This document shows, piece by piece, positions 8,842 through 60,578 of a stretch of 64,000 bases of DNA. Both the position numbers and the translations under genes were made by a program. A model generated the notes under the pieces. It saw only the letters and a list, made by a program, of their open reading frames with translations, had not been told where the DNA came from and ran no database searches. This DNA is from Tepidanaerobacter acetatoxydans Re1. GTDB taxonomy: Bacteria > Bacillota > Thermosediminibacteria > Thermosediminibacterales > Tepidanaerobacteraceae. Where the stretch lies: assembly GCF_000328765.2 (NCBI RefSeq), contig NC_019954.2, positions 562,501-626,500 of the forward strand, given 5' to 3'. Within the stretch, counting starts at the first letter, position 1. Every line of letters starts with the position of its first letter.

Positions 8842-11800
8842 ATGGATAAAAGCTTGATAAAAAACTATGCCGTATGGGCAAGAAATAAATTAATTGAAGA
8901 TATTTCTCAAAGAGCTTATGAACTTGGAATCACGGAAAATGAAATAAAAAAGCCTGAAGAAGTATCGCAAGACTATATAAGAATAAACGGGAAAAAACTC
9001 AAGTCATTTGAAATAAATCAGCGAAAAAGCCTTGAGGCTAAAATACGCGAAAAAGGATTCGAGCAAGTAGTTGAAGAAGTTGCCTATACTTGGTTTAACC
9101 GGATTATAGCCTTAAGGTTCATGGAGGTAAACGGTTATATTCCCACAGGGGTCAGAGTGCTGTCATCAGCAGAACCGGGGAAAACAGAACCAGATATCAT
9201 CACATATGCCGAGCATATCGACCTTGATTTAAACCAAGAAGTAGTTGCAAGACTAAAAGATGAAAATGATACAGAAGAACTGTTCAGATATCTTCTTGTT
9301 AAACAGTGCAACAAGCTAAATGATATTCTCCCTGGGCTATTTGAAAAGATAGGAGACTATACTGATATATTGCTGCCGAAGAATTTGCTGTCAGAAGGCT
9401 CGATTATACGCCGCCTGGTTTCCGATATACCGGAGGAATACTTCAAAGAACAAGTAGAGATAATAGGCTGGCTCTATCAATACTATATTTCAGAAAAGAA
9501 AGATGAGGTTTTTGCAGGTCTTAAGAAAAATCAAAAGATAACTAAAGAAAAAATTCCTGCTGCAACCCAGCTGTTTACTCCTAAATGGATAGTAAAGTAT
9601 ATGGTGGAAAACTCTTTGGGGCGATTGTGGCTGGAGAAGATTAGTGGGCAGGAGATAGTGGGCAGTGGGAAGTGGGTAGTGGATAGTAAGAAGTTAAAAG
9701 AGAAGTGGAAGTATTATATTGATGAGGCTGAGCAGGAGCCGGAAGTGGAGGAGCAGCTTAAAAAGATAAGGGCAGAAAGTAAGGATATGAAGCCAGAAGA
9801 CATAAAAGTATTAGACCCGGCTATGGGCAGTGGCCATATACTAGTCTACGCATTTGATGTGCTTTTTGATATATATAAAAGCGCCGGCTATTCTGAACGG
9901 GAGATACCTAAACTTATCCTGGAAAACAATCTTTACGGGTTAGACATTGACGATCGAGCGGGCCAACTGGCCTATTTTGCAGTGATGATGAAAGCCAGAA
10001 GCAAAAACAGGCGAATATTTCGCGAAAACATAGATATAAATTTGTGCTCTATCCAAGAAAGTAATGGAATACCTGAAGAAACTATTACATACTTTGCCGG
10101 CGGAAAAAAATTTATTTCAAAGACAGAGCTGGAAGAAAAGATAAAAGGCAAAGACAACTTGTCCGATGCGGATTTTGAAATTCAGGCAAGATACCTTATC
10201 CATGTATTTCAAGATGCCAAGGAATATGGTTCGATACTAGAAGTGAAAAAGCTTGATTTTGATAAGACAGAAAACCGATTAGAGGAAATTCGGCAAAATC
10301 ATCCCGGCGACGCATTTGAATTTGGGCATAAACAAATACTACTTGAAAAACTCCCGCCCCTCATAAAGCAGGCCAAGATAATGAGCAGCAAATATGATGT
10401 AGTAGTCACCAACCCGCCTTATATGGGGCGGAAGGGGATGAATAATGCGTTAAAGAAATATGTAGATGAGCATTACAAAGATTCGAAGAATGATTTATTT
10501 GCAGTTTTTATGGAAGTTGGAATAAATTATTTGGAACAATACGGTTTTATGGGAATGATAAATCAGCAGTCATGGATGTTTCTGTCGAGTTTTGAAAAAT
10601 TAAGATCAAAGTTAATGAAAAATATAACTATAATTAACATTGTGCATTTAGGGCCAAGAGCATTTAATGAGATTAGAGGAGAAGTTGTTCAAACAGTCGC
10701 TTTTGTTTTTGCTAAATGGAGAGAATTATATCCTACTTCGATGAAACAATTAAAATCGTCATATATTAGATTAGTTGATTTCAGTTCTGCTTATGAAAAG
10801 AAAAAGAAATTCATTAATGCCATAGAAGATAAGAACGTAAACTATAGGTATGATAACGTAAAGCAAGAAATGTTTTCAAAAATACCTGGTGGTCCCATCG
10901 CATACTGGGTTAATAAAAAAATTGTAAACATATTTCAAAACAAACTACTAGGTGATATGGCAAAGGTTCGAAAAGGAATGGATACAGGGAATAATGAAAG
11001 ATTTTTGCGATATTGGTACGAAGTGTCAAGATGTAAAGTTGGTATTGGATTAAGAAAAGGAGAAGACACAATAAAGTTTGCAAAAAAATGGATACCCTAT
11101 AATAAAGGTGGCGGGTTTAGGAAATGGTATGGCAATAATGAGTATGTTATAAACTGGTTGAACAATGGGTTAGAACTGAAAGAACATAAAAGTGCAAATC
11201 TACGAAGTATTAACTTATATTTTAAGGAAGCATTGTCTTGGACTTTGATAAGTTCAAAAAACTCTTTTGGATTGCGGTATGTTCCTAAAGGATTTATTTT
11301 TGATTCTAATGGTTCTGCAATATTTATCGATAAAGATAAAATAAGATATATACTTGGTTTCGGCATTACTAAGGTAGCAAGTGAATTACTAAAAATACTT
11401 AGTTCAACCTTGGCATTTAATATTAGCGATGTAGCAAGTTTGCCAATCAAGCTTGCTAATTCAGATAAGTGTTTAAACAAAATAAATCATATTGTTGACT
11501 TATCTATCTCCATCTCCAAAACCGACTGGGACTCCTTCGAAACTTCATGGGACTTTAAAAAGCATCCAATACTCACGCACAAAGGTGATGCAGATACCAT
11601 AGAGCAAGCCTTTAACAATTGGGCGGAGTTTGCGGAAAAACAATTTTATCAGCTCAAAGCCAATGAAGAGGAGTTAAACCGAATATTTATCAAGATTTAT
11701 GGTCTTGAAGATGAGCTTACTCCTGAAGTTGATGAAAAAGATGTAACGGTAAGTAAAGCCGACAGGGAGCGGGACATTAAGTCATTTATCTCCTATGCAG

Positions 11801-46868: not shown

Positions 46869-46927
46869 TTGGTAAAAAGTATCAGGAAACTTATAAATAA
46901 CAACAAAAAGTTGATATTTTTTACCAA
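46869..46927. promoter_or_regulatory. Candidate enhancer sites upstream of glpP
   Basis: TTGGTAAAAAGTATCA (46869-46884) and TTGATATTTTTTACCAA (46911-46927) form an inverted pair with one mismatch in 16. The second site begins 58 bases before the sigma-54 promoter. The same 17-base pattern TTGATA-N4-TTACCAA recurs before dhaK. The arrangement fits binding of a sigma-54 activator. Confidence 0.6.
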
Positions 46928-46968
46928 GGCAAAAACCTCGAACTGTTAGAAAATCAATAAGACATTCT

Positions 46969-46984
46969 TGGCACAGTTTTTGCA
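46969..46984 (+). promoter_or_regulatory. Sigma-54 promoter of glpP
   Basis: TGGCACAGTTTTTGCA fits the -24/-12 consensus TGGCAC(N5)TTGCA exactly, with GG and GC twelve positions apart. It lies 75 bases before the glpP start. Confidence 0.8.
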
Positions 46985-47058
46985 TAATATATTCTATAAA
47001 GATGTGATAATTGAATAAATTTTTCAGGGTATTACCGAGGCGAAACAGAGGTGATTGT

Positions 47059-47634
47059 TTGAACGAAACAGAAATAACAGAAGATTTGAAGAGTTTCCCG
47101 GTGATACCGGCTATACGAGATGTTAATAGGCTCGATACAGCCATATCGAAAATGTCCAAATGCATTTTTTTGCTGACAGGTAATATACTAAATATCAAGA
47201 ATATAGTGGAACATGTGAAAAGAGCAGATAAAAGAGTTTTTTTACATATAGACCTGCTTGAAGGTATAAGCAAGGATGGTATGGGCATAAAATATATTGC
47301 TCAGGAGATTAAACCGGATGGAATTATCACAACGAGAGCAAATCTAGTAAATTATGCTAAAAGTGAAGGCTTGTTTACTATCCAGAGAATATTTGTCCTC
47401 GACAGTCTAGCTGTAGATACCGCGGAAAAATCTGTAAGAAATGTGAATCCTGATGCAATAGAAATTTTGCCGGCGGTTATACCTAAAGTAATTGCAAGAG
47501 TATGCCAAAGAGTAAGACATCCGGTTATAGCCGGAGGGTTAATTGAGGATATAGACGAAGTAGAGGCAGCTCTAAGAGAAGGGGCTTTGGCCATATCAGT
47601 TACAAAAGAGGATATATGGGATTACACCTTTTGA
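47059..47634 (+). CDS. glpP: Glycerol uptake operon antiterminator GlpP
   Basis: About 191 residues from TTG 47059 (NETEITEDL) behind AGAGGTGAT. The family opens VIPAIRDVNRLDTAISK and has FLLTGNILNIKNIVEHVKR, FLHIDLLEGISKDGMGIKYI, PDGIITTRANLV and PVIAGGLIEDIDEVEAALREGA, a TIM-barrel-like protein that with glycerol 3-phosphate prevents termination in glp leader RNAs. Terminator-like hairpins before the transporter genes and before glpA are plausible targets. A sigma-54 promoter precedes it, which is unusual for this regulator. Confidence 0.92.
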   Translation: MNETEITEDLKSFPVIPAIRDVNRLDTAISKMSKCIFLLTGNILNIKNIVEHVKRADKRVFLHIDLLEGISKDGMGIKYIAQEIKPDGIITTRANLVNYAKSEGLFTIQRIFVLDSLAVDTAEKSVRNVNPDAIEILPAVIPKVIARVCQRVRHPVIAGGLIEDIDEVEAALREGALAISVTKEDIWDYTF

Positions 47635-47654
47635 GGACTTGGAGATTAGGAGAA

Positions 47655-47724
47655 AGTCCTTCCGGGTAAATAGTATGACAGCATCTTTTTGTCAAATTAT
47701 TTGCCTTGGAAGGATTTTTATTTT
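47655..47724 (+). terminator. Leader terminator between glpP and the transporter genes
   Basis: A long interrupted stem pairs TCCTTCC (47657-47663) with GGAAGGA (47708-47714), with inner pairing of GGTAAAT to ATTTGCC and GACA to TGTC, followed by TTTTATTTT. It is a candidate GlpP-controlled attenuator. Confidence 0.7.
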
Positions 47725-47831
47725 ACCTAAATTTATCTAAAAAGGAGGTGGATTATGTAATATCATAAAGAGTAGGGGATATTTTAATCTATTGTAATTA
47801 CTAAGAGGTTAAAAAAATGGAGGTGACATTA

Positions 47832-48206
47832 GTGAAAAACCTTGGATCAATCATTGGTTTTGCAATTGCTGGTATTTTCGTAATGTCAGTATGGGGAGCT
47901 TTTGCAGATGCATATGGTATTGTGGGAGGCTGGTTTGCAGGTTTTATAATTATCTCGGTTATGTGGTTTTTAAACCACTTTTTGGGTCTTATTGCTAATG
48001 AAGGTGCATTTGTTGACATGGCCCTTGGCATAGGAATAACCGGTACAATGAGAGATGTATTTCTTAAAGGTTCTGCAGCTGGAGTGGCTTCTCTGCCGAC
48101 ATTAGCTTTCGTGGTTATCGGTGGTATTATAGGGGGTAGCGTTGCAGTTGCAGTCGAGAAGACTTGGGCGGAAAGAGATGCCTCAAAAAAAGATGTTTCA
48201 ATGTAA
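47832..48206 (+). CDS. Lin0368-type putative glycerol transporter subunit (first)
   Basis: About 124 residues. GTG 47832 is chosen because GGAGGTGA sits five bases before it. The ATG at 47817 overlaps that site. Three or four hydrophobic helices alternate with AFADAYGIVGGWFAGF, MWFLNHFLGLI and AFVDMALGIGITGTMRD. It resembles one half of the Lin0368 family, found beside glycerol kinase genes in Firmicutes. The companion gene at 48236 shares the GGWxAxF and LNHxxGLI pattern, so the two are paralogous and likely form one membrane complex. No GlpF channel is present, which supports a transport role, still unproven. Confidence 0.75.
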   Translation: MKNLGSIIGFAIAGIFVMSVWGAFADAYGIVGGWFAGFIIISVMWFLNHFLGLIANEGAFVDMALGIGITGTMRDVFLKGSAAGVASLPTLAFVVIGGIIGGSVAVAVEKTWAERDASKKDVSM

Positions 48207-48235
48207 TTTGATTAAAAAATAGGGGAGGTCATAAA

Positions 48236-48574
48236 ATGGCATTTCCAAAGATTATTGCTACTATGGCTGGTGGTTTTATATTTCCGTTTTTACTCAGACT
48301 CGTATGGGGGAAACTCTGTGATAACTTCGGACCTATCGGTGGTTGGCTTGCTGCCGGCTTTATAGTTGGGACAACATGGACTCTCAACCACGGTGTGGGT
48401 TTAATCTTTCAGTCTGGTGATGCTTGGATAGATATGGCATGGGCAGCCGGAACAGGATTATTTGTTGCTTCGGCTCTATCAGGTGACGATGTAGGTAAAG
48501 GTATAGGTATGATAATAAATGCAATTATTGGAGGAGTTTTAGGAGGATTTATTCTTTATTGCCTATATGTGTAA
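48236..48574 (+). CDS. Lin0368-type putative glycerol transporter subunit (second)
   Basis: 112 residues, ATG behind GGGGAGG. Predicted helices cover IIATMAGGFIFPFLLRL, GGWLAAGFIVGTTWTLNHG, AWAAGTGLFVASAL and IGMIINAIIGGVLGGFILY. The segments GPIGGWLAAGFI and LNHGVGLIF align by eye with GIVGGWFAGFII and LNHFLGLIA of the preceding gene, showing internal relatedness of the pair. It stands between that gene and glpK. A glycerol-uptake function is known only as a putative assignment for the family. Confidence 0.75.
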   Translation: MAFPKIIATMAGGFIFPFLLRLVWGKLCDNFGPIGGWLAAGFIVGTTWTLNHGVGLIFQSGDAWIDMAWAAGTGLFVASALSGDDVGKGIGMIINAIIGGVLGGFILYCLYV

Positions 48575-48704
48575 ATCTTAAATACACAAAATTATAACAA
48601 TTATTATTATATAAAATAATATTGCACCATGAATGATGCATAATAATTAGATTATTATAAGTTTTCACATATTTCAAATAAAATAATATATCACAGGGAG
48701 GTAA

Positions 48705-50204
<1,500 letters not shown>

Positions 50205-50268
50205 TAAAATCTACTTTTTCAGTGAAAAAAAAGATGCAATAGGATTTAGAAGCTGTGGCGGAGAATAA

Positions 50269-50303
50269 GGAGAACCACACCTTTATATAGGGTGTGGTTT
50301 TCC
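50269..50303 (+). terminator. Hairpin with T-run before glpA, possible attenuator
   Basis: AACCACACC (50273-50281) pairs exactly with GGTGTGGTT (50291-50299), followed by TT. It lies between glpK and the ribosome site of the dehydrogenase gene and may be read through with GlpP help. Confidence 0.65.
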
Positions 50304-50322
50304 TAATTTGGGGAGGAATAAA

Positions 50323-51795
50323 ATGGAAGACATAGTAATTATTGGGGCAGGAGTAACTGGTTGTTCAATTGCTCGTGAGCTGTCTCGCTATGATATCAAT
50401 ATTACTTTAGTGGAAAAAGAAGAGGATGTGGCTTGTGGCACCAGCAAAGCTAATAGTGCTGTAGTGCATGCTGGTTTTGATGCAACACCGGGTACATGGA
50501 AAGCAAAACTCAATGTAGCGGGAAATAAGCTTTATCCTGCGCTGTGTGAAGAACTTGATGTACCATTTAAAATGAATGGCTCTCTTGTTGTTGCTGTAAA
50601 CGAAGAAGAAGTGAATGCTCTTGATGAATTGCTTAAGAAAGGCAAGACTAATGGCGTAAATCCTTTAAGAATTATTGGAAAAGATGAACTACATGCTTTA
50701 GAACCTAATCTAAATCCCGATGCTCGAGCAGCACTTGATGCTCCGACCGGTGGACTGGTTTGCCCGTATGAGCTTACTATTGCTTTAGCGGAAAACGCCA
50801 ATCAAAATGGAGTAAAATTTTGGCTCAATGCGCCGGTAACTGATATAGAAGTAATGGGAGACTACTGTTTTTTGGTAAAAACTCCAAAGGGAAACATTAA
50901 AACAAAATATGTGATAAATGCCGCCGGCCTATTTGCCGATGAGATTTCAAAAATGGCTGGCGCCGAAGAATATACTATAACTCCTCGCAAAGGTGAATAT
51001 CTCATATTTGATAAGCAATTTGGAAACATGGTAAAAAAAGCAATTTTCCCAACTCCGACTAAAATATCTAAAGGTATTTTAGTATGCCCGACTGTTGATG
51101 GAAACATATTTATAGGCCCCAATTCAAACGATATTGAAGATAAATATGACACAAGTGTAAATGCTGCCGGGATCGAAGAAATTATAAGCGGCGGAAGGAA
51201 ACTTGTGCCTAATCTGCCTTTAAAAAATGTAATCACATCTTTTGCAGGATTAAGAGCAGTGTCTAACACTAATGACTTTATAATTGAAGCATCTAAATTG
51301 GTTAAAGGCTTTATCAACGTGGGCGGTATACAGTCACCTGGCCTAACTTCAGCACCTGCTATAGCACTTATGGTAAAAGATATACTGCAAGAAGCAGGCC
51401 TTGATTTAAAAAAGAAAAAAGATTTTATTCCTCATAGGCCAAAAAAATACAGGTTTAGGGAATTAGGCAGTGAAGAACGTAGAAAGCTTATTGAACAAAA
51501 TTCTGCATTCGGCCATGTGATTTGCAGATGCGAAACTGTTACCGAAGCGGAAATTATTGATGCTATAAGGAGGCCGGTAGGTGCTCGCAGTATAGATGCG
51601 GTAAAAAGGAGAACTCGTGCCGGCATGGGACGGTGTCAAGGAGGTTTTTGCTCTCCGAGAGTGCTGGAAATATTAACAAAAGAACTTGGAGCAGATCCTT
51701 TGGAAATAACTAAAAAGGGTCCGGGTTCAAATATGCTGGTTGGTCGTATAAAGGAATTTCTACAGGACGAAGGCGGTGACCAAAATGATAACTAA
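50323..51795 (+). CDS. glpA: Glycerol-3-phosphate dehydrogenase, GlpA-like FAD subunit
   Basis: About 490 residues from ATG 50323 behind GGGGAGGAA. The FAD-binding start is DIVIIGAGVTGCSIARELS. The DAO-type body follows, and the C-terminus has a BFD-like [2Fe-2S] domain: CRCETVTEAEIIDAI near residue 400 and GMGRCQGGFC near 437. It is followed without gap by a GlpB-like flavoprotein and a DUF1667 protein, the usual clostridial triad that oxidises glycerol 3-phosphate to dihydroxyacetone phosphate. The electron acceptor is not evident. The last 11 bases overlap the next gene. Confidence 0.87.
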   Translation: MEDIVIIGAGVTGCSIARELSRYDINITLVEKEEDVACGTSKANSAVVHAGFDATPGTWKAKLNVAGNKLYPALCEELDVPFKMNGSLVVAVNEEEVNALDELLKKGKTNGVNPLRIIGKDELHALEPNLNPDARAALDAPTGGLVCPYELTIALAENANQNGVKFWLNAPVTDIEVMGDYCFLVKTPKGNIKTKYVINAAGLFADEISKMAGAEEYTITPRKGEYLIFDKQFGNMVKKAIFPTPTKISKGILVCPTVDGNIFIGPNSNDIEDKYDTSVNAAGIEEIISGGRKLVPNLPLKNVITSFAGLRAVSNTNDFIIEASKLVKGFINVGGIQSPGLTSAPAIALMVKDILQEAGLDLKKKKDFIPHRPKKYRFRELGSEERRKLIEQNSAFGHVICRCETVTEAEIIDAIRRPVGARSIDAVKRRTRAGMGRCQGGFCSPRVLEILTKELGADPLEITKKGPGSNMLVGRIKEFLQDEGGDQNDN

Positions 51796-53062
51796 AGAAC
51801 TTGTAATAATAGGCGGTGGTCCTGCAGGGCTTGCTGCTGCAATTGAAGCAAAAAAACATGGTGCAAAGGATATTTTGCTTATAGAACGGGATTCCGGTCT
51901 GGGAGGAATTTTACAACAGTGTATCCATAACGGTTTTGGTCTTCATGTTTTCAAAGAAGAACTTACAGGTCCCGAATATGCCGACAGATTCATTAAAGAG
52001 CTTGAGGAAATAGGTATAGAAGTCTTGCTAGATACTATGGTTATAGATTTGACAGAAGATAAGCAAATAATCGCTGTCAGTCATAAAAAAGGATTGCTCC
52101 AAATCAAAGCTGATGCAGTAATACTTACCATGGGATGCAGGGAAAGAACCAGGGGTGCTATAAATATTCCGGGCTACCGTCCTGCAGGGATTTTTACGGC
52201 AGGCACCGCCCAGAGATTTGTAAACATCGAAGGCTACATGCCCGGCAAGGAAATAGTTATTTTAGGCTCAGGTGATATAGGTCTTATCATGGCGCGTCGC
52301 TTTACTCTTGAGGGGGCAAAGGTAAAATGTGTAGCGGAAATAATGCCTTACTCAAACGGCCTTACGCGAAATATTGTCCAGTGCTTGGAGGATTTTGATA
52401 TTCCACTGCTTTTAAGCCATACTGTCACATACATCCATGGCAGAAATAGAGTTGAAGGTGTAACAATTGCTCAAGTTGATGATAAACTAAATCCTATTCC
52501 GTCAACCGAAAAATTTATTAGCTGTGATACTTTACTGCTATCAGTAGGATTGATTCCGGAAAATGAGCTCTCAAAGATGGCTGATATTCAAATAGATAAT
52601 GTTACCGGGGGGCCGGTGGTAAATCAGAGAATGGAAACCTCGGTACCTGGAATTTTTGCATGCGGCAACGTAGTCCATGTTCATGACTTAGTAGATTTTG
52701 TTACTATGGAATCAAGGCTTGCAGGCCGTGGCGCCGTAAATTACCTGAAAAATAAGATGCCACAGCAAAAATTCATTAAGGTTTCACCAGGTTCTGATAT
52801 TAGATATGTTGTGCCGCAATTGATTGATGCTGAAAATATTCTGGATGAAAAACAAAACTTTTTTATGCGTAGCACAAGACCTATGGAAAAGGCACGTTTA
52901 TTTATAGAATCGGAAGATGGCCTTATCCGTGCAAAAGTACTCCAGCACATAAAGCCTAGCGAAATGATAAATATTGAACTTAAAAAAGAAGAACTTGCAA
53001 ATAAAGATATTAAGACCTTAAAATTTTCCCTTCAGGAAGAAGGTGTGGATAATGGAAATTAA
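51785..53062 (+). CDS. FAD/NAD(P)-dependent oxidoreductase, GlpB-like partner
   Basis: About 425 residues from ATG 51785, with GGCGGTGA upstream and an 11-base overlap with glpA. ELVIIGGGPAGLAAAIEAK binds FAD, ILQQCIHNGFGLHVFKEELTG is the family's second motif, and VILGSGDIGLIMARRF the NAD(P) site. The pattern is that of the flavoprotein accompanying GlpA-like dehydrogenases in Clostridia, distinct in sequence from enterobacterial GlpB. It likely receives electrons from the GlpA-like subunit and passes them to NAD or another carrier. Confidence 0.85.
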   Translation: MITKELVIIGGGPAGLAAAIEAKKHGAKDILLIERDSGLGGILQQCIHNGFGLHVFKEELTGPEYADRFIKELEEIGIEVLLDTMVIDLTEDKQIIAVSHKKGLLQIKADAVILTMGCRERTRGAINIPGYRPAGIFTAGTAQRFVNIEGYMPGKEIVILGSGDIGLIMARRFTLEGAKVKCVAEIMPYSNGLTRNIVQCLEDFDIPLLLSHTVTYIHGRNRVEGVTIAQVDDKLNPIPSTEKFISCDTLLLSVGLIPENELSKMADIQIDNVTGGPVVNQRMETSVPGIFACGNVVHVHDLVDFVTMESRLAGRGAVNYLKNKMPQQKFIKVSPGSDIRYVVPQLIDAENILDEKQNFFMRSTRPMEKARLFIESEDGLIRAKVLQHIKPSEMINIELKKEELANKDIKTLKFSLQEEGVDNGN

Positions 53063-53408
53063 TAAAACAGTGACTTGTATTATTTGTCCGAAAGGATGTC
53101 AAATCGATGTAAAAGTTGTAGACAACGAAGTTGTCAATATAGAAAATTATGGTTGTAAACGCGGTATAGAATATGCTAAAAATGAAGTATTAGACCCGCG
53201 AAGGATACTTACTACAACGTTAAAACTTCAAGGTGGCAGAGTACTGCCGGTAAAGACAAAAGAGCCTATTCCTAAAAAATTATTGAAGAAAGCTATGTTT
53301 GAATTAAAAGATATTGTAGTAGCTCAACCTGTTAAAGTTGGTGATGTAGTTGCAGAAAATGTAGTTGGAACAGGCATTGATGTAATTGCTACGGGAAATG
53401 CTGAATAA
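53052..53408 (+). CDS. DUF1667 domain protein, third subunit of the dehydrogenase set
   Basis: About 118 residues from ATG 53052, overlapping the preceding gene by 11 bases. Cysteines in VTCIICPKGCQIDVK (near residues 8-16) and YGCKRGIEYA near 36 suggest a small iron-sulfur or zinc domain. The rest reads RRILTTTLKLQGGRVLPVKT and DVVAENVVGTGIDVIAT. DUF1667 proteins constantly follow these two flavoprotein genes and may act as electron carrier or anchor. No membrane helix is present. Confidence 0.87.
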   Translation: MEINKTVTCIICPKGCQIDVKVVDNEVVNIENYGCKRGIEYAKNEVLDPRRILTTTLKLQGGRVLPVKTKEPIPKKLLKKAMFELKDIVVAQPVKVGDVVAENVVGTGIDVIATGNAE

Positions 53409-53453
53409 AAACATAAATATAATTTTTGGACAGAAGCGAAAGGGTGAAAAGCC

Positions 53454-55136
53454 TTGTTTCAAAAAAATGCTGTTTTTACCCATCCTAAAGGAATGCATAT
53501 CAGAGCTGCGGCAATGATAGTCCAAAAGGCTTATGAGATAGAAAATACAATGGGCACAAGCGTATATATCCGCAATCAAGCCGGAAGGGAAGTGCCTGCT
53601 ACTGCATTGATGGCTATTCACTCATTGAATATAAAACCCGGAGAATGTATTACAATAGTAGCAAAGGGGCCAAATGCAAATGATGCAATAGAATGTTTTG
53701 AAGAATTGCTCAAACGCGATTTATTGCCTCAGAATTCTGCAGAATTAGAGCAGGTGGATGATATTTTAGAAGAAAATATGATTAAAGCCGATAAAATCTT
53801 TGACAGTATAGGTCTTGGCCTTATCGTCACAAATAAACAAGGCACCATAATACAGTGCAATAGGATTGTAGAGAATTTAATGGGTATAAATAAACAATAT
53901 ATCATTGGTAATTCGATTCAAGAAGTCATTCCAGGTATAGATTTGAGTGGTGGGTCATTTAACAGGATTAGGGTTAAGGGATCGGCAAAAAAAGACGAAC
54001 AAAAAATTATATCGGCAGATGTTAATCCAATATTTGTTGAAGGTGAAATCGCCGGATATTCTATAATTTTTAACAAGCATGCTTCCCAAATGGGATTGCC
54101 ACTTTCTGAACAATTATTAGATTATAGCCAAAAGAACGAGTTAGGTTTCAAAATATCTCAAAAAGAAACATTTAAACTTGATGAAGCCTTTAGCAATATT
54201 ATTGGTCGCAGTGAAAAGTTATTGGCAGCTTTAGGTATTGCCGCTAAGGCAGCCAAAACTTCTTCTACTGTTCTTTTACAAGGAGAAAGCGGTACGGGAA
54301 AAGAATTGGTAGCCGAAGCAATCCACCGTGCTAGCAGCCGCTGTAAAGGGCCTTTTATAAAGGTAAATTGTCCCGGTATACCGGCCAATTTAATGGAAAG
54401 TGAACTTTTTGGCCACGAAAGAGGTGCCTTTACCGGCGCTATTTATCAAAAAATCGGTAAGTTTGAATTAGCAAATGGCGGCACTATATTTCTTGACGAA
54501 ATAGGTGAATTGGATAAAAATTTACAAGCAAAACTTCTTAGAGTCTTACAGGAGCGGGAATTTGAAAGAGTAGGAGGAAATCAGGTTTTAAAAACTGATG
54601 TCAGAATAATAGCTGCAACCCATCGAAATTTAAGGGAAATGGTAAGCAAAGGTGATTTTCGTGAAGATCTCTACTATCGATTGAATGTGGTACCTGTAAT
54701 GCTGCCAAGTCTAAGAGAGAGAAAAGATGACATTCCTTTACTTGTCGAGCATTTTCTTGAAAAACTCTGTAAAAAGTTAGGCTTGAAAAATAAAATTATG
54801 TCGAAAAGAGCTATTGGATATTTATACAATTATGATTGGCCCGGAAATGTTCGAGAATTGGAGAATATTATTGAACGAGTTATAAATCTGACCGATAGCG
54901 AAGTGATTGATGCATGGGATCTTCCCCAATATATAACCGGTAAGATTATAGAAAAAAAACAACCTCTTATAAACTTAAACATGGATGGAGAGTTGGCTAC
55001 CTTTGATGATTACGAAAAGGCCATAATAAAAGTGGCTCTAAAAAAATATAAAAGCTTTAATGCCGCCGGTAAGGCTTTAGGGATAACCCATAAAACCGTT
55101 GCGGCAAAAGCTAGAAGATATGGTATAATTGAGTAA
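53454..55136 (+). CDS. Sigma-54 activator with N-terminal HPr and PAS domains
   Basis: 560 residues, TTG start eight bases after AAGGGTGA. Residues 1-88 resemble HPr of the phosphotransferase system: the histidine site is [17 protein letters not shown], followed by [22 protein letters not shown]-like domain covers about 110-205 ([20 protein letters not shown]). The AAA+ domain begins near 242 with [17 protein letters not shown] near 277 and ERGAFTGA near 324, the sigma-54 contact loop. A Fis-type helix-turn-helix ends the protein ([20 protein letters not shown]). It is flanked by the glp and dha genes, whose sigma-54 promoters are likely targets. Phosphorylation through the phosphotransferase system is inferred. 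Confidence 0.9.
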
Positions 55137-55160
55137 AGTATACTGAGAAGGGGTCAAAAA

Positions 55161-56900
55161 ATGGTAAACTTGAAATCTCATATTGATAATGCGGTTATGA
55201 CCTCGAACAGCCAAGCCAATCAAAGCGAAATACTTCATCTGAGTGAGCAGGTAGGTTATGATGCTCATGAATTAAAGTGGATAGTTGCAAAAAATGCTGA
55301 TACAGTAAAAAATTTGGTGAGGCTTATTGACGATATATCTTGTAATTCCCAGGAGATAAGTGCCAATGCGGCCAGCGGGTCTGAAGAGCTCAAAGGTCTA
55401 TCGCTTTTGGCATCAAAATTAAAAGAAACGGCTGCAATGGTTTCTCAAATATCAAGGGATTACTCAAAAAAAGTGGAAGAGGGAAGTACAGCTATAAGTG
55501 AAGTAGAGTATGCCTTAGCACAAGTTACTTCTCAAATAGACAAATCTTCCGCTGAAATTGAAGCCTTGTTGGGGCTTACAGAAAAAGTAAAGGATTTTGT
55601 AAGTTTTACTAAGCATATAGCACAGCAGACGAACCTGCTCGCCCTAAATGCGGCCATAGAAGCAGCCAGAGCCGGTGAGGCCGGTCGAGGCTTTAGCGTT
55701 GTGGCAAATGAAATTAGAAAGCTTGCAGAACGGAGTAGAGAAAAAGCTCAAGAGATACATGACACTGCAGATATGATAAATGAAGGTATAGTTAAGGCAT
55801 GCCAAATATCTAAAGAAGGTGTTACCGGATTACAAAACACAAATGCAAAGATGCAAATAGGAAAAGATGTAATGAATGAAGCTGTTGCTGTATTTGAGGA
55901 TATATCAGAGCTTAACAGTAAATTATTTGATTCTTCTGAAGAACAAGCAAAGGTTTCCGAATACTTAACGGAAATATTTATGACGCTTTCAGAAAAGACT
56001 GCATCAACTGCAGATTCCACCACAAAAGTAGCTTTTCTAATAAAGGATCAAGAAAAATGCAATGATGAGCTTTTGGTGATAGCCGAGAAACTAGTGCAAA
56101 AAGTGTACTCTCTGCAAAAACAGTCTACTTATCTAAAAAGCAAAGATGAAATAATTTTTGGCATAAATCCCGCACTAAGTCCTGAAGTTATAAAGTCTTT
56201 ATACCTTCCTGTAATTAATGCTATATGTAATAAAATCGGTCTTATCCCAAGAGTTCTGGTAGCTACCGACTATGACGCACTGTCTAACAGCTTAATCGAC
56301 GGTATCGTTGATGTGGGATGGTTTTCGCCTTTAGCCTATGTAAATGCCAGAAATAAGGCTCCGATTATTCCATTAGTAACACCTGTTGTAAATGGAGCAC
56401 CCAGCTATTTGGGATTTATTATTACAACTGTAGAGTCCGGCATAAAAGATTTAAAAGACGTAAAAGGGGAGCGGGTAGCATTTGTAGACCCTAAATCAGC
56501 TTCCGGCTATGCTTATCCAAGGATGCTTTTGAAAAAGGCCGGGATAAATCCTGACAGAGATTTACAAGAACAATTATTTCTTGGAACACATAGTAATGTA
56601 GTAGAAGCGGTACTGTCGGGCTCAATTAAAGTAGGCGCTACTTATTCCGAAGCGATAGATGATGCAAAACATAGAGGCCTTGATGTAAGTAAGCTTGTAT
56701 ATTTAGCTCAGACCGATCCGATACCGAAAGACTGTATAGCAGTTCGTCCCGGTTTGGAGCCGGAAACAATAGAGAAACTAAAGAATGCTTTCATAAATTA
56801 TAAAGATAACAAGAAAGGCAGCTCGGTGATTAACGGTTTTGTTGTTGCTTACGATGATAATTACGATATTATTCGAGAAGTAGTAAAAGACGCAGGTTGA
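55161..56900 (+). CDS. Soluble chemoreceptor-like protein fused to a PhnD-type binding domain
   Basis: 579 residues, no signal peptide or membrane helix. The first ~320 residues are a methyl-accepting signalling domain: long heptad helices and the conserved tip [21 protein letters not shown] near residue 155, then [15 protein letters not shown]. The C-terminal ~250 residues resemble phosphonate/phosphite ABC binding proteins (PhnD): [58 protein letters not shown] and [15 protein letters not shown]. Binding proteins of this fold are normally extracytoplasmic. Here it must face the cytosol. It may sense a phosphorylated metabolite such as dihydroxyacetone phosphate. The ligand is unknown. Confidence 0.85.
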
Positions 56901-56914
56901 TAAAAATTACCAAC
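56898..56914 (+). promoter_or_regulatory. Candidate enhancer site upstream of dhaK
   Basis: TTGATAAAAATTACCAA matches the site at 46911-46927 in 13 of 17 positions, with the four differences confined to the centre. It begins at the stop codon of the chemoreceptor gene, 66 bases before the sigma-54 promoter of dhaK. Confidence 0.6.
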
Positions 56915-56963
56915 TATTATTTTTGAAAATTATAAAAGGCGCATGTATTAAGGCTTTTAACGT

Positions 56964-56979
56964 TGGTATGATTTATGCT
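56964..56979 (+). promoter_or_regulatory. Sigma-54 promoter of dhaKLM
   Basis: TGGTATGATTTATGCT keeps the GG and GC of the -24/-12 elements at the required spacing of twelve, with two departures from TGGCAC and one from TTGCT. It lies 57 bases before the dhaK start. Confidence 0.7.
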
Positions 56980-57020
56980 ATTATATAATAGTATAAATCA
57001 TTTTTTTTAGGAGGGTTTCT

Positions 57021-58019
57021 ATGAAAAAGATTATTAATAATCCCGAAAATGTCGTACAAGAGATGTTGGAAGGTATGGTGGCGGCCTACCCACAGTATGT
57101 GCGAAAACTCGATGGATTTGATGTTATTGTAAGAGCTAATGCTCCAGTGAAGGGAAAAGTTGCACTGGTATCAGGCGGAGGCAGTGGTCACGAGCCTTCT
57201 CATGCGGGTTTTGTGGGTAAGGGCATGCTTGATGCCGGAGTTGCCGGTGCGGTCTTTACATCTCCAACCCCGGACCAAGTTTTTGAAGCAATAAAGGCCG
57301 TTGATGGCGGTGCCGGTGTGTTACTGATAATAAAAAACTATACCGGTGATGTTATGAATTTTGAGATGGCAGGAGAAATGGCTGAAGCTGAGGGAATCAA
57401 AGTGGCAAGTGTGCTGGTAAATGATGATGTAGCCGTTGAAGATAGCCTTTACACAACAGGTCGGCGCGGCATTGCCGGAACAGTTTTTGTGCACAAGATT
57501 GCAGGAGCAAAGGCTGAAGCCGGAGGAACTCTGGAAGACGTAAAAGCGGTGGCAGAAAAAGTTATTAAAAACACTAGAAGCATGGGGATGGCACTAACAC
57601 CTTGTATAGTACCTGCTGCAGGGAAACCTACTTTTACTCTGGCAGAGGATGAAATGGAAATAGGAATGGGCATTCACGGAGAACCTGGAACTAAGCGTAC
57701 ACATATTATGAAAGCTGATGAGTTAGTGGATCATCTGATGGATAAAATAATAAATGATATACCGTATAAATCAGGGGATGAAGTAGCGGTAATGATAAAT
57801 GGCCTTGGTGCCACACCCCTTATGGAACAGTTCATAATGAATCGTAGAGTGAGTCAAATATTGAAAGAAAAAGGAATTTCAGTATACAAAACCTTTGTAG
57901 GAGAATTTATGACCTCAATTGAAATGGCCGGAGCATCAATCACCTTATTAAAATTGGATGATGAATTAAAACAATTATTGGATGCCCAGGCCGATACTCC
58001 TGCTTTAAGACAATTATGA
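57021..58019 (+). CDS. dhaK: Dihydroxyacetone kinase subunit DhaK
   Basis: 332 residues, ATG behind [33 protein letters not shown] in two motif halves near residue 50, then [18 protein letters not shown] near residue 98, and [10 protein letters not shown], whose histidine (residue 219) is positioned to bind dihydroxyacetone covalently. It is the substrate-binding subunit of the phosphotransferase-type kinase that phosphorylates dihydroxyacetone with a phosphoryl group from DhaL and DhaM. First gene of dhaKLM, 27 bases before dhaL. Confidence 0.95.
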
Positions 58020-58046
58020 TGCATCTTTTGAAAGGAGACGGGAGAC

Positions 58047-58679
58047 TTGGCAGTAAATAGTGCAGAATTAATCGAAATTATAAATCTGATAGCACATGAT
58101 ATTCAGGAAAATAAGGATTTTTTGACGGAACTTGATTCAGCTATTGGTGATGCTGATCACGGTATAAATATGTCAAAAGGTTTTAAAGCTGTCAATGAAA
58201 AAATATCCACAATGGGTGATAAGGACTGTGGCAGTATCTTGAAAACCGTAGGAATGACGCTAGTATCGACCGTCGGTGGCGCTTCCGGCCCCTTGTACGG
58301 TACAGCATTTATGAGGGCAGGTCAAGCGGTTGGAGCCAAAAAAGAACTTGATTTTAATGATTTGCCAATAATTTTGGATGCTGCTCTTGAAGGCATTAAG
58401 ATGCGTGGGAAAGCCGAAAAGGGCGAGAAAACCATAATAGATGCTTTAGAACCTGCGGTAGAAGTATTGAAAAAATCATCACCTGTAGATATAAAACTCA
58501 TGGAAGAGGCAGTAAAAGCAGCAAAAGATGGGGTAGAATACACTAAAGGCATAATTGCAAAAAAAGGAAGAGCTAGTTACCTAGGGGAAAGAAGTATTGG
58601 TCATCAGGACCCGGGTGCTACTTCCTGCTATATTATGTTAGCGGCAGTATACAAGGCAATACACGATAAAAATAATTGA
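58047..58679 (+). CDS. dhaL: Dihydroxyacetone kinase subunit DhaL (ADP-binding)
   Basis: 210 residues, TTG start behind GGAGACGGG. SAIGDADHGINMSKGF near residue 29 supplies the acidic ligands for the magnesium-ADP coenzyme, SGPLYGTAFMRAGQAV near residue 80 and SYLGERSIGHQDPGATSC near residue 177 complete the family pattern. DhaL carries a bound nucleotide that is rephosphorylated by DhaM and donates to dihydroxyacetone on DhaK. Its stop overlaps the possible upstream start of dhaM. Confidence 0.94.
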   Translation: MAVNSAELIEIINLIAHDIQENKDFLTELDSAIGDADHGINMSKGFKAVNEKISTMGDKDCGSILKTVGMTLVSTVGGASGPLYGTAFMRAGQAVGAKKELDFNDLPIILDAALEGIKMRGKAEKGEKTIIDALEPAVEVLKKSSPVDIKLMEEAVKAAKDGVEYTKGIIAKKGRASYLGERSIGHQDPGATSCYIMLAAVYKAIHDKNN

Positions 58680-58711
58680 TAAATATTGTCAAAGTGAAAT
58701 GGGGTGATGCA

Positions 58712-59107
58712 TTGGTTGGTATCGTGTTAGTATCACATAGTAAAAAAATGGCAGATGGAGCTAAGGAAATAATAGAGCAAGTGATAAGAGGCAAAATAAA
58801 AATTGAAGTAGCTGCCGGCACATCAGATAACAGACTGGGCACCGATGTCTTTCTAATTGAAGAAAAAGTTATGGAGGTCTTTGACGGTGACGGTGTATTG
58901 ATTATTCCGGATCTGGGCAGTGCGGTAATGAGTGCAGAAATGGCTATTGAAAGTTTAGAAGAGCCTATAAAATCCAAGACACAACTAGCAGATTCACCCT
59001 TCTTTGAAGGAGCTATTTCAGCGGCTATGGAGGCAAGTTTTGGGAAGAGCCTCGAAGAGGTCAAGCAAGCGGCAGAAAATACCAGAGGCATGAAGAAAAT
59101 AGCGTGA
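58712..59107 (+). CDS. dhaM: Dihydroxyacetone kinase phosphotransfer subunit DhaM, EIIA domain only
   Basis: About 131 residues. TTG 58712 is chosen because GGGGTGAT lies four bases upstream. The open frame extends 12 codons further to 58676. VGIVLVSHSKKMADGAKEI carries the phosphorylated histidine (residue 9), and VLIIPDLGSAVMSAEMA the mannose-type EIIA fold. Unlike the three-domain DhaM of Escherichia coli, it has no HPr or EI part, so general HPr must phosphorylate it. The HPr-containing activator upstream may compete for or report the same phosphoryl flow. The stop codon is in a perfect hairpin. Confidence 0.9.
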   Translation: MVGIVLVSHSKKMADGAKEIIEQVIRGKIKIEVAAGTSDNRLGTDVFLIEEKVMEVFDGDGVLIIPDLGSAVMSAEMAIESLEEPIKSKTQLADSPFFEGAISAAMEASFGKSLEEVKQAAENTRGMKKIA

Positions 59108-59140
59108 ATAATTGGGGACGGTTCCGTCCCCAATTATTCA
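59105..59140. terminator. Bidirectional palindromic terminator between convergent genes
   Basis: The 17-base arm TGAATAATTGGGGACGG (59105-59121) is repeated as its exact reverse complement at 59124-59140 with a two-base loop. The first three bases of each arm are the stop codons of dhaM and of the opposing DUF4438 gene. The core GGGGACGG/CCGTCCCC resembles REP-like elements of Firmicutes. Confidence 0.8.
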
Positions 59141-60001
59141 GTCAATCCCTAGGTAATGTCCAATATTTGCTTTATCATTAAAAATACCTTTAATTTTAGT
59201 CGTTTTAGAGCTCATGATTACAGTTACTCCGGGGCCATGTCCGGACAGCACGCAATCGCTGTGAATAACAACTCCTATGGATACCGCACCCTTTAAATAC
59301 TGTCTTCCATTGGTATTATCACAGTCTCTTAAGAGAACTAAATCGCCAAATTTTAATTTATCTATACCGAATGTCTTGTTTGCTTCTTTATCACCCGTCA
59401 TTATATCATAATCGCCCATAAATGCCGTAGAGCTGCCAATACCCGACCCCATAAGATATGCAGGTATTTCTGCTACAATAGGCACTTCCAAAGTTCCATT
59501 TTGGTCTATCTTTAAATCTATTTTTTCAAACAGGTTCGGGTCCAAATTCATGCATGTAACATCTTCGAAACCTTCGATTTTTAAACCCTGTCCAAATGCC
59601 TTAACAAGAATGGTATCTCCTATGGCCATTTTATTCATATCTTCATCATTAAAATATATCAAAACATGATCAATTCCGCTGTGCATGCCTGTAACAATAC
59701 CTCTAGCATCCTTAGCGTTTCCGCTTATAACCACAGCTTCATTGCCTATACATGAAAGCATCATTAGAGCATTGTTTTCCTGGGTATTTTCATTTTTTAT
59801 GCTTACACCGGGCTCGATATGATCTCCCACCAAATTCATGCAAGAATCTCCGAGCTTTACATTGTAAGTTATTCCACCTGTAGCCGGAAGGATTCTGCCT
59901 TGACCATTTCTGTCAACTCTATAAGGACTGTTTACCGTAGGGCTGTGAATTTTGCCCTGCACAGACTGCATTACAAGTCTTTCTTTATTTATTTTAATCA
60001 A
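59138..60001 (-). CDS. DUF4438 domain-containing protein
   Basis: 287 residues. The start is TTG 60001 behind AAGGGGGAC. An ATG 30 bases further in is an alternative. It matches DUF4438: YRVDRNGQGRILPATGGITY near residue 27, GDHIEPGVSI near residue 60, GVVIHSDCVLSGHGPGVTVI near residue 244. The family has a known fold but no established reaction. The conserved His/Asp residues hint at metal binding. It runs opposite to dhaM and shares its terminator hairpin. No operon partner exists. Confidence 0.82.
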   Translation of the reverse strand: MIKINKERLVMQSVQGKIHSPTVNSPYRVDRNGQGRILPATGGITYNVKLGDSCMNLVGDHIEPGVSIKNENTQENNALMMLSCIGNEAVVISGNAKDARGIVTGMHSGIDHVLIYFNDEDMNKMAIGDTILVKAFGQGLKIEGFEDVTCMNLDPNLFEKIDLKIDQNGTLEVPIVAEIPAYLMGSGIGSSTAFMGDYDIMTGDKEANKTFGIDKLKFGDLVLLRDCDNTNGRQYLKGAVSIGVVIHSDCVLSGHGPGVTVIMSSKTTKIKGIFNDKANIGHYLGID

Positions 60002-60167
60002 GATTTTTGTCCCCCTTAGATTATATGTTGTGCCTATCTTATCGTATTCTACTTTAAAATAGATTATCCTTCAATTTATAATAATGGTAAAGGATTTTTT
60101 GTTTTGTGTAACGAAATATAATTACATACTTTCTATAGCATAGATTGAAATCTTGGAGGTAATGTGT

Positions 60168-60578
60168 ATGAGAAAAATCGCAATTAAGACCGACCGGCGA
60201 AATCAGATGTTGGATATAACTTCGATTGTACAAAAGAGTGTCAGCGAGTCAGGTGTCAAAAATGGAATTTGTTATATTTTTGTACCACACACAACTGCTG
60301 CAGTTACCATTAACGAGAGTGCTGACACAGATGTTGCCAATGATATATTGGAAACTTTAAGCAAACTAATTCCATACAAAGACAGTTACAGGCATGTTGA
60401 AGGAAATTCCGATGCCCACATAAAAGCTTCATTGATTGGAGATACAGCGATGCTTATTATCGAAGATGGAAGATTAGTTTTAGGTAGATGGCAGGGAATC
60501 TTTTTCTGCGAATTTGATGGTCCTAGGAATAGAAATCTAATTATAAAAATCGTAGATGATAAGAAGACGGAAAATTAG
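60168..60578 (+). CDS. yjbQ: YjbQ family protein (secondary thiamine-phosphate synthase type)
   Basis: About 136 residues from ATG 60168, with GGAGGTAATGTGT before it. CYIFVPHTTAAVTINESADTDV in two overlapping motif halves near residue 37, HVEGNSDAHIKASLIG near residue 81, and LGRWQGIFFCEFDGPRNR near the C-terminus. The conserved histidines bind metal in solved structures. A weak thiamine-phosphate synthase activity has been reported for homologues, and the physiological role is unclear. The gene stands alone, with a 370-base spacer downstream. Confidence 0.87.
   Translation: MRKIAIKTDRRNQMLDITSIVQKSVSESGVKNGICYIFVPHTTAAVTINESADTDVANDILETLSKLIPYKDSYRHVEGNSDAHIKASLIGDTAMLIIEDGRLVLGRWQGIFFCEFDGPRNRNLIIKIVDDKKTEN

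Follow-up and report, generated by a model that had tools for sequence, protein, structure and literature searches.

What does a chemoreceptor sense when its ligand-binding domain is of a periplasmic type and the protein carries neither a signal peptide nor a membrane segment? A gene of Tepidanaerobacter acetatoxydans Re1 raises this question. We analysed a window of 64,000 nucleotides (contig NC_019954.2, positions 562,501 to 626,500 of the forward strand; all positions below are those of the window unless a relative is named), in which a single open reading frame joins the signalling hairpin of a methyl-accepting chemoreceptor (MCP) to a PhnD-type domain. The gene and its two parts are as follows.

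55161–56900, plus strand: soluble MCP with a C-terminal PhnD-type domain (open reading frame, Pfam, NCBIfam, hydropathy, alignments)
55224–56096, plus strand: MCP hairpin, about residues 22–312, tip near E167 (PF00015, motif positions)
56157–56837, plus strand: PhnD-type ligand-binding domain, residues 333–559 (PF12974, alignments, domain model, fold search)

The frame encodes 579 amino acids from an ATG start, with a Shine-Dalgarno-like GAAGGGG 5′ of it. The MCPsignal model PF00015 matches residues 97–269 (E 2.5e-31; 109 bits against a cut-off of 34.6), and motif positions place a hairpin tip of the conserved type at about residue 167. The arm limits, near residues 22 and 312, are estimates from symmetry; they leave only a short N-terminal tail before the hairpin and attach the sensor directly to the C-terminal arm. 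Glutamate pairs E75/E76 and E260/E261 lie nearly symmetrically about the tip and are candidate methylation pairs, the strict consensus giving no matches. The Phosphonate-bd model PF12974 matches residues 333–559 over 228 of 242 positions (212 bits, cut-off 27), and both domains are complete and intact. Among NCBIfam models, the C-terminal part scores above the cut-off of TIGR01098, the general phosphate/phosphite/phosphonate group (158.8 bits, cut-off 112), and does not reach that of TIGR03431, the PhnD equivalog (146.6 bits, cut-off 261). The fusion thus belongs to the MCP class and to the PhnD fold family, while lacking that family's secretion feature and falling short of the equivalog cut-off. 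A model of residues 318–579 has a mean pLDDT of 79.6 and matches the structures of PtxB, HtxB, ArrX, PhnD and GpxB in Foldseek (E 1.9e-22 to 1e-16); the full-length model from a single sequence reached a mean pLDDT of only 39.6. The pocket geometry discussed below is based on sequence alignment and on this domain model. An earlier sequence-only reading of the locus had proposed an MCP hairpin followed by a full PhnD-type domain, and the Pfam, model and fold matches all agree with it.

The same reading held that signal peptide and membrane helix are both missing, which is borne out in the window protein: its N-terminus is polar, no signal peptide was found, and there is no membrane segment, the highest 19-residue Kyte-Doolittle mean being 1.44. 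Pfam also gave no match to a Cache domain in this protein. Family members close to the window protein are likewise soluble, and many others have one or two N-terminal transmembrane helices with no outside domain. The hidden membrane segment that the reading had proposed to look for is therefore absent here and present in distant members as an N-terminal anchor, where the PhnD domain is still cytoplasmic. The hairpin must contact CheA and CheW in the cytoplasm, so the sensor is cytoplasmic in all members. An extracytoplasmic PhnD domain is ruled out, given this placement of the hairpin and the lack of any hydrophobic stretch between hairpin and domain in the window protein and in all 26 members scanned.

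A profile of the linker and PhnD-type domain, searched against genomes sampled from one phylum, found the fusion in 33 genomes of that phylum. It is present in 14 of 26 genomes in a class-level sample and in 21 of 398 in a phylum sample, and two further classes gave six additional fusion genomes. Profile scores are bimodal, with fusions above 300 bits (open frames of 565–672 residues) and standalone PhnD proteins below 175 bits. In a midpoint-rooted tree with 17 standalone sequences, the fused domains form one clade (support 100/100) on a long stem, well separated from the standalone proteins; the fused PhnD-type domains are monophyletic and have a single origin. Eleven close relatives, at 53–99% identity, have the same reading frame and order, one copy being frameshifted near its 3′ end, and a near-identical gene occurs in Tepidanaerobacter sp. 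EBM-38. Chance or an annotation artefact is ruled out, as the same fusion is found in 33 genomes and is intact except in the one frameshifted copy. That frameshift (locus L047 of genome G007, which looks complete, about 8950–9060) lies in an A-rich stretch near the 3′ end of the fusion and reflects either real decay or a sequencing error. A scan of viral contigs found no relatives, and no full-length match was present among 72,556 plasmid records. A literature search, with most subscription journals outside its reach, found no description of this domain order; domain databases may list the MCP–PhnD architecture unnoticed.

The genes around the fusion form a glycerol operon.

46969–46984, plus strand: sigma-54 (−24/−12) promoter TGGCACAGTTTTTGCA at the operon head (exact match)
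47061–47634, plus strand: glpP, glycerol-3-phosphate responsive antiterminator (PF04309, 224 bits)
47817–48206 and 48236–48574, plus strand: two DUF6905 membrane proteins (PF21846)
48711–50204, plus strand: glpK, glycerol kinase (TIGR01311, 775.5 bits against a cut-off of 590)
50308–51795, 51776–53062 and 53043–53408, plus strand: GlpA-like gene, GlpB-like gene and a third small ORF, a glycerol-3-phosphate (G3P) dehydrogenase-like set
53454–55136, plus strand: sigma-54 activator with N-terminal HPr and PAS domains (PF00381, PF00989, PF00158, HTH_50)
57021–58019, 58047–58679 and 58676–59107, plus strand: dhaK, dhaL and dhaM (TIGR02363, TIGR02365, TIGR02364, all above cut-off)

All of these genes are co-oriented in the order given, and the fusion stands where the sequence-only reading had put it, with the sigma-54 activator upstream and dhaK downstream. 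The promoter is the sole exact sigma-54 match in the 64 kb, where base composition predicts 0.035, and the operon-head site recurs with at most one mismatch in seven relatives. Four of those seven (L041:9080, L044:8655, L045:9154, L047:8835) have a second sigma-54 site in the interval from the fusion to dhaK; this site is degenerate in the window. The likely start of glpP is TTG 47061, its longest ORF beginning at 47011. Matches of the GlpA-like and GlpB-like genes to the GlpA and G3P oxidase models fall below cut-off, and the order of the genes is conserved in relatives. No model matched the small ORF at 53043–53408, which we take, from its position, to be the third of the Glp set. The HPr domain of the activator retains its phosphorylatable histidine (GMHIRAA), and the activator may itself be the HPr that pairs with DhaM or with enzyme I. 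DhaM itself consists of a short EIIA-like part only (143 aa). No ABC transporter gene lies within the operon of the fusion, and Rfam models found no RNA elements in 46900–60500. Just 3′ of dhaM, on the minus strand, 59138–60001 encodes a two-domain DUF4438 protein, and one relative (L039) has one nearby too.

From their position, the DUF6905 proteins are possible transporter subunits. Paired small DUF6905 genes head most of these glycerol operons, and in two relatives a MIP-like channel gene, presumably glpF, is found there. The pair could possibly form glycerol uptake subunits. The paper on the species reports no glycerol facilitator for T. acetatoxydans (PMC4374699).

Does the glycerol setting hold beyond this operon? 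The sequence-only reading had tied its ligand guess to an association of homologues with glp and dha genes. This association recurs, with the fusion gene inside a glycerol locus in 20 of the 33 genomes, which include at least four lineages that branch separately and differ in gene order; in 11 of the 33 no glycerol or glycolysis neighbour is visible, so the association is strong, not universal. The operon arrangement described above is common to 12 genomes, all close members. Four others (G104, G245, G423, G427) lack the activator and, in another gene order, have the fusion flanked by glpABC and dhaKLM, and G447 has it after glpABC, with dhaL-dhaM at the opposite end of the cluster. The order is glpP-fusion-glpF-glpK in G141 and G497, and in G014 the fusion adjoins glpP at a contig end. 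In G112 and G339 the fusion follows pyk-pgk-tpi-eno, a run headed by a GlpC-like iron-sulphur protein, where phosphoglycerate kinase and triose-phosphate isomerase were named from their sequences. Among the members without a glycerol link, at least that of G069 sits on a 6-kb contig. The glycerol label requires five changes on the tree, and the link is therefore not just one inherited block. Labels came from matches to the window's proteins and selected Pfam scans, an approach that could overlook links to unrelated glycerol genes. For a rough comparison, about 160 MCPs were counted in nine glycerol-linked genomes; apart from the nine fusions, only about three of them have a GlpK gene within 15 kb. 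Because these genomes were picked for being linked, the proportion to rely on is 20 of 33.

The pocket offers a second line of evidence on the ligand. Aligned with PhnD, the phosphorus-head residues Y47, Y93, S127, S129 and H157 correspond to Y371, Y416, S446, S448 and H477 of the fusion, and all five are kept in 32 of 32 fusions. In the tail region, the acidic pair E497/D524 corresponds to E177/D205 of E. coli PhnD; E497 is present in 31 of 32 fusions (aspartate in one) and D524 in all 32, while both positions are variable among standalone homologues. The nearest functional precedent is GpxB, a periplasmic protein of the PhnT family that binds glycerol 1-phosphate (G1P) and G3P (PDB 9LF9/9LFB). 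Its R223 and T247 bind the hydroxyls of G1P and G3P at about 1 µM, and it binds other C3 phosphates poorly (PMC12718374). GpxB has the same fold and family, and its tyrosine, Ser-x-Ser and histidine ligands for the phosphate head are all kept in the fusion. It differs in being a secreted transport component and not a receptor, and it scores only 61 bits against the fusion profile. The fusion lacks the GpxB tail residues Arg223/Thr247 and, when positions are mapped by way of E. coli PhnD E177/D205, has E497/D524 at the cap. Acidic residues can also bind hydroxyls, as Glu88 of UgpB contacts G3P (PMC12718374). Judged from sequence, the acidic pair is expected to suit a hydroxyl or amine donor, to disfavour carboxylates such as PEP and phosphoglycerate, and to fit a ketone less well. 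Pocket and neighbourhood together give a predicted ranking of G3P first and dihydroxyacetone phosphate (DHAP) second, with an aminated ligand as the main rival. The guess of the sequence-only reading, an internal phosphorylated three-carbon compound, is plausible by analogy with GpxB (PMC12718374).

Starting from the observed architecture, topology, operon, monophyly, pocket conservation and fold, we think it somewhat probable that the fusion acts in the cytosol as a chemoreceptor whose ligand is an internal C3 phosphate, with G3P the likeliest candidate and DHAP less likely. Glycerol is fermented by the host, a motile species with cheA, cheW and cheY (PMC4374699). The MCP hairpin would dock with CheA and CheW, and the PhnD-type domain would hang off the C-terminal arm at the bundle end far from the tip, where usual receptors have HAMP and sensor. 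Once glycerol has entered and been phosphorylated by GlpK, its product would bring the two lobes of the domain together, and this closure could shift the signalling state of the hairpin. Flagellar behaviour would then track glycerol flux and not external glycerol, and the sigma-54 promoter with its activator would restrict receptor production to glycerol use. Through this receptor an internal glycerol metabolite probably steers the cell.

We weighed this proposal against an aminated phosphonate or phosphate ester as the ligand (2-aminoethylphosphonate, phosphoethanolamine), with the glycerol setting reflecting catabolism of phospholipid head groups and backbones. The acidic pair, almost invariant in the fusions, matches the PhnD residues E177 and D205 that hold the amine of 2-aminoethylphosphonate (PMC5700983, PMC12718374), and the pocket signature is identical in fusions with and without glycerol neighbours. 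However, a search of the host genome (2.76 Mb, one contig) found neither PhnJ (C-P lyase) nor another strong PhnD protein that could be a second transporter component, which leaves no evident route or use for phosphonates in the host. No phosphonate genes were recognised in the fusion neighbourhoods examined, and the UgpB contact indicates that an acidic cap is compatible with hydroxyls too. We regard an aminated ligand as rather unlikely. Sensing of inorganic phosphate, phosphite or a general phosphorylation state, with a secondary glycerol link, appears very unlikely. The head ligands are all kept and phosphite-binding PtxB proteins are the top sequence and fold matches, but all 32 fusions have D524 where PtxB has its tyrosine cap, Y208, and loss of this cap goes with a larger pocket in known structures (PMC5700983). 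A phosphite sensor is thereby made unlikely, and a phosphate sensor would leave the repeated glp/dha placement unexplained.

Alternatively, the domain might no longer signal through a small molecule and might instead dock another protein, for example an enzyme or a regulator encoded in the operon. A binding-protein fold in the cytoplasm could be repurposed in this way, and close relatives keep the fusion together with the HPr–sigma-54 activator and DhaKLM. The activator is missing in several glycerol-linked members, though, and when members at 35–100% identity are compared, conservation within the domain is among the highest at the pocket residues, which argues for ligand binding; we consider a docking role quite unlikely. 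Similarly improbable is a real receptor whose output is not flagellar taxis, the MCP–CheA pathway leading to flocculation, sporulation or gene expression. Late in growth T. acetatoxydans loses its motility, and it forms chains and flocs, but the species is described as having one che set for motility (PMC4374699), and in one relative that has no glycerol link (G426, locus L110) the fusion adjoins a chemotaxis-flagellar cluster. The internal C3 phosphate receptor is the reading that we carry forward.

How does such a receptor compare with known systems? Its domain order had been described in the sequence-only reading as reversed. The C-terminal sensor is real, but the order is less radical than it sounds, because cytosolic receptors with a C-terminal sensor are known, such as the TlpD type with its CZB domain. 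The C-terminal end of the hairpin shares its bundle end with the usual N-terminal sensor. Like the fusion, the TlpD type is soluble and carries its sensor C-terminal to the hairpin; its sensor domain and signal are different. What is new is therefore the type of sensor and the fact that it is used in the cytoplasm, together with a single origin of the fusion and its recurrence in glycerol loci. PacP and other sCache_PC3 chemoreceptors bind phosphorylated C3 compounds, G3P best (PMC12395807), and the fusion would resemble them in working as a G3P receptor. In contrast, PacP senses an outside ligand through a periplasmic sCache sensor between two transmembrane segments, and the sensor folds are unrelated. 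E. coli PhnD shares the head ligands and has an identical cap pair, whereas it is periplasmic, is encoded with phnC and C-P lyase genes, and has about 25% identity to the fusion domain. PtxB, HtxB, ArrX and AioX are the nearest solved structures by sequence and fold; they are periplasmic, bind phosphite, hypophosphite or arsenic oxyanions, and differ in their cap residues.

The idea of metabolism-dependent chemotaxis is an old one, but few receptors appear to be known that directly bind one defined metabolite inside the cell; in the majority of known cases the signal is redox state, oxygen or PTS phosphorylation. The chances seem to us about even that the fusions form a receptor family across one phylum, in which a periplasmic-type phosphonate/phosphate-binding domain has moved to the cytoplasm and reads the cell's own pool of G3P or triose phosphates, so that motility follows metabolic flux. 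Motility in that family would then depend on a direct intracellular metabolite receptor and not on outside ligand, redox or PTS state. Here a solute-binding domain is used inside the cell, and this familiar, easily purified domain is encoded in an operon whose products generate and use up its likely ligand, which opens the question to experiment. If the proposal is true, a phosphorylated ligand is added to a receptor class for which the first such ligands were reported only in 2025 (PMC12395807).

Two smaller features of the neighbourhoods deserve mention. In several relatives a DJ-1/PfpI family protein is encoded directly 5′ of the fusion (L107:6238-6759, L109:6786-7307, L096:6387-6908), where it perhaps removes methylglyoxal. 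Short MCP reading frames also lie about 1–6 kb from glycerol kinase genes (G447:C9:125681-126019; G022:C1:122987-123415) and possibly represent another glycerol-linked receptor.
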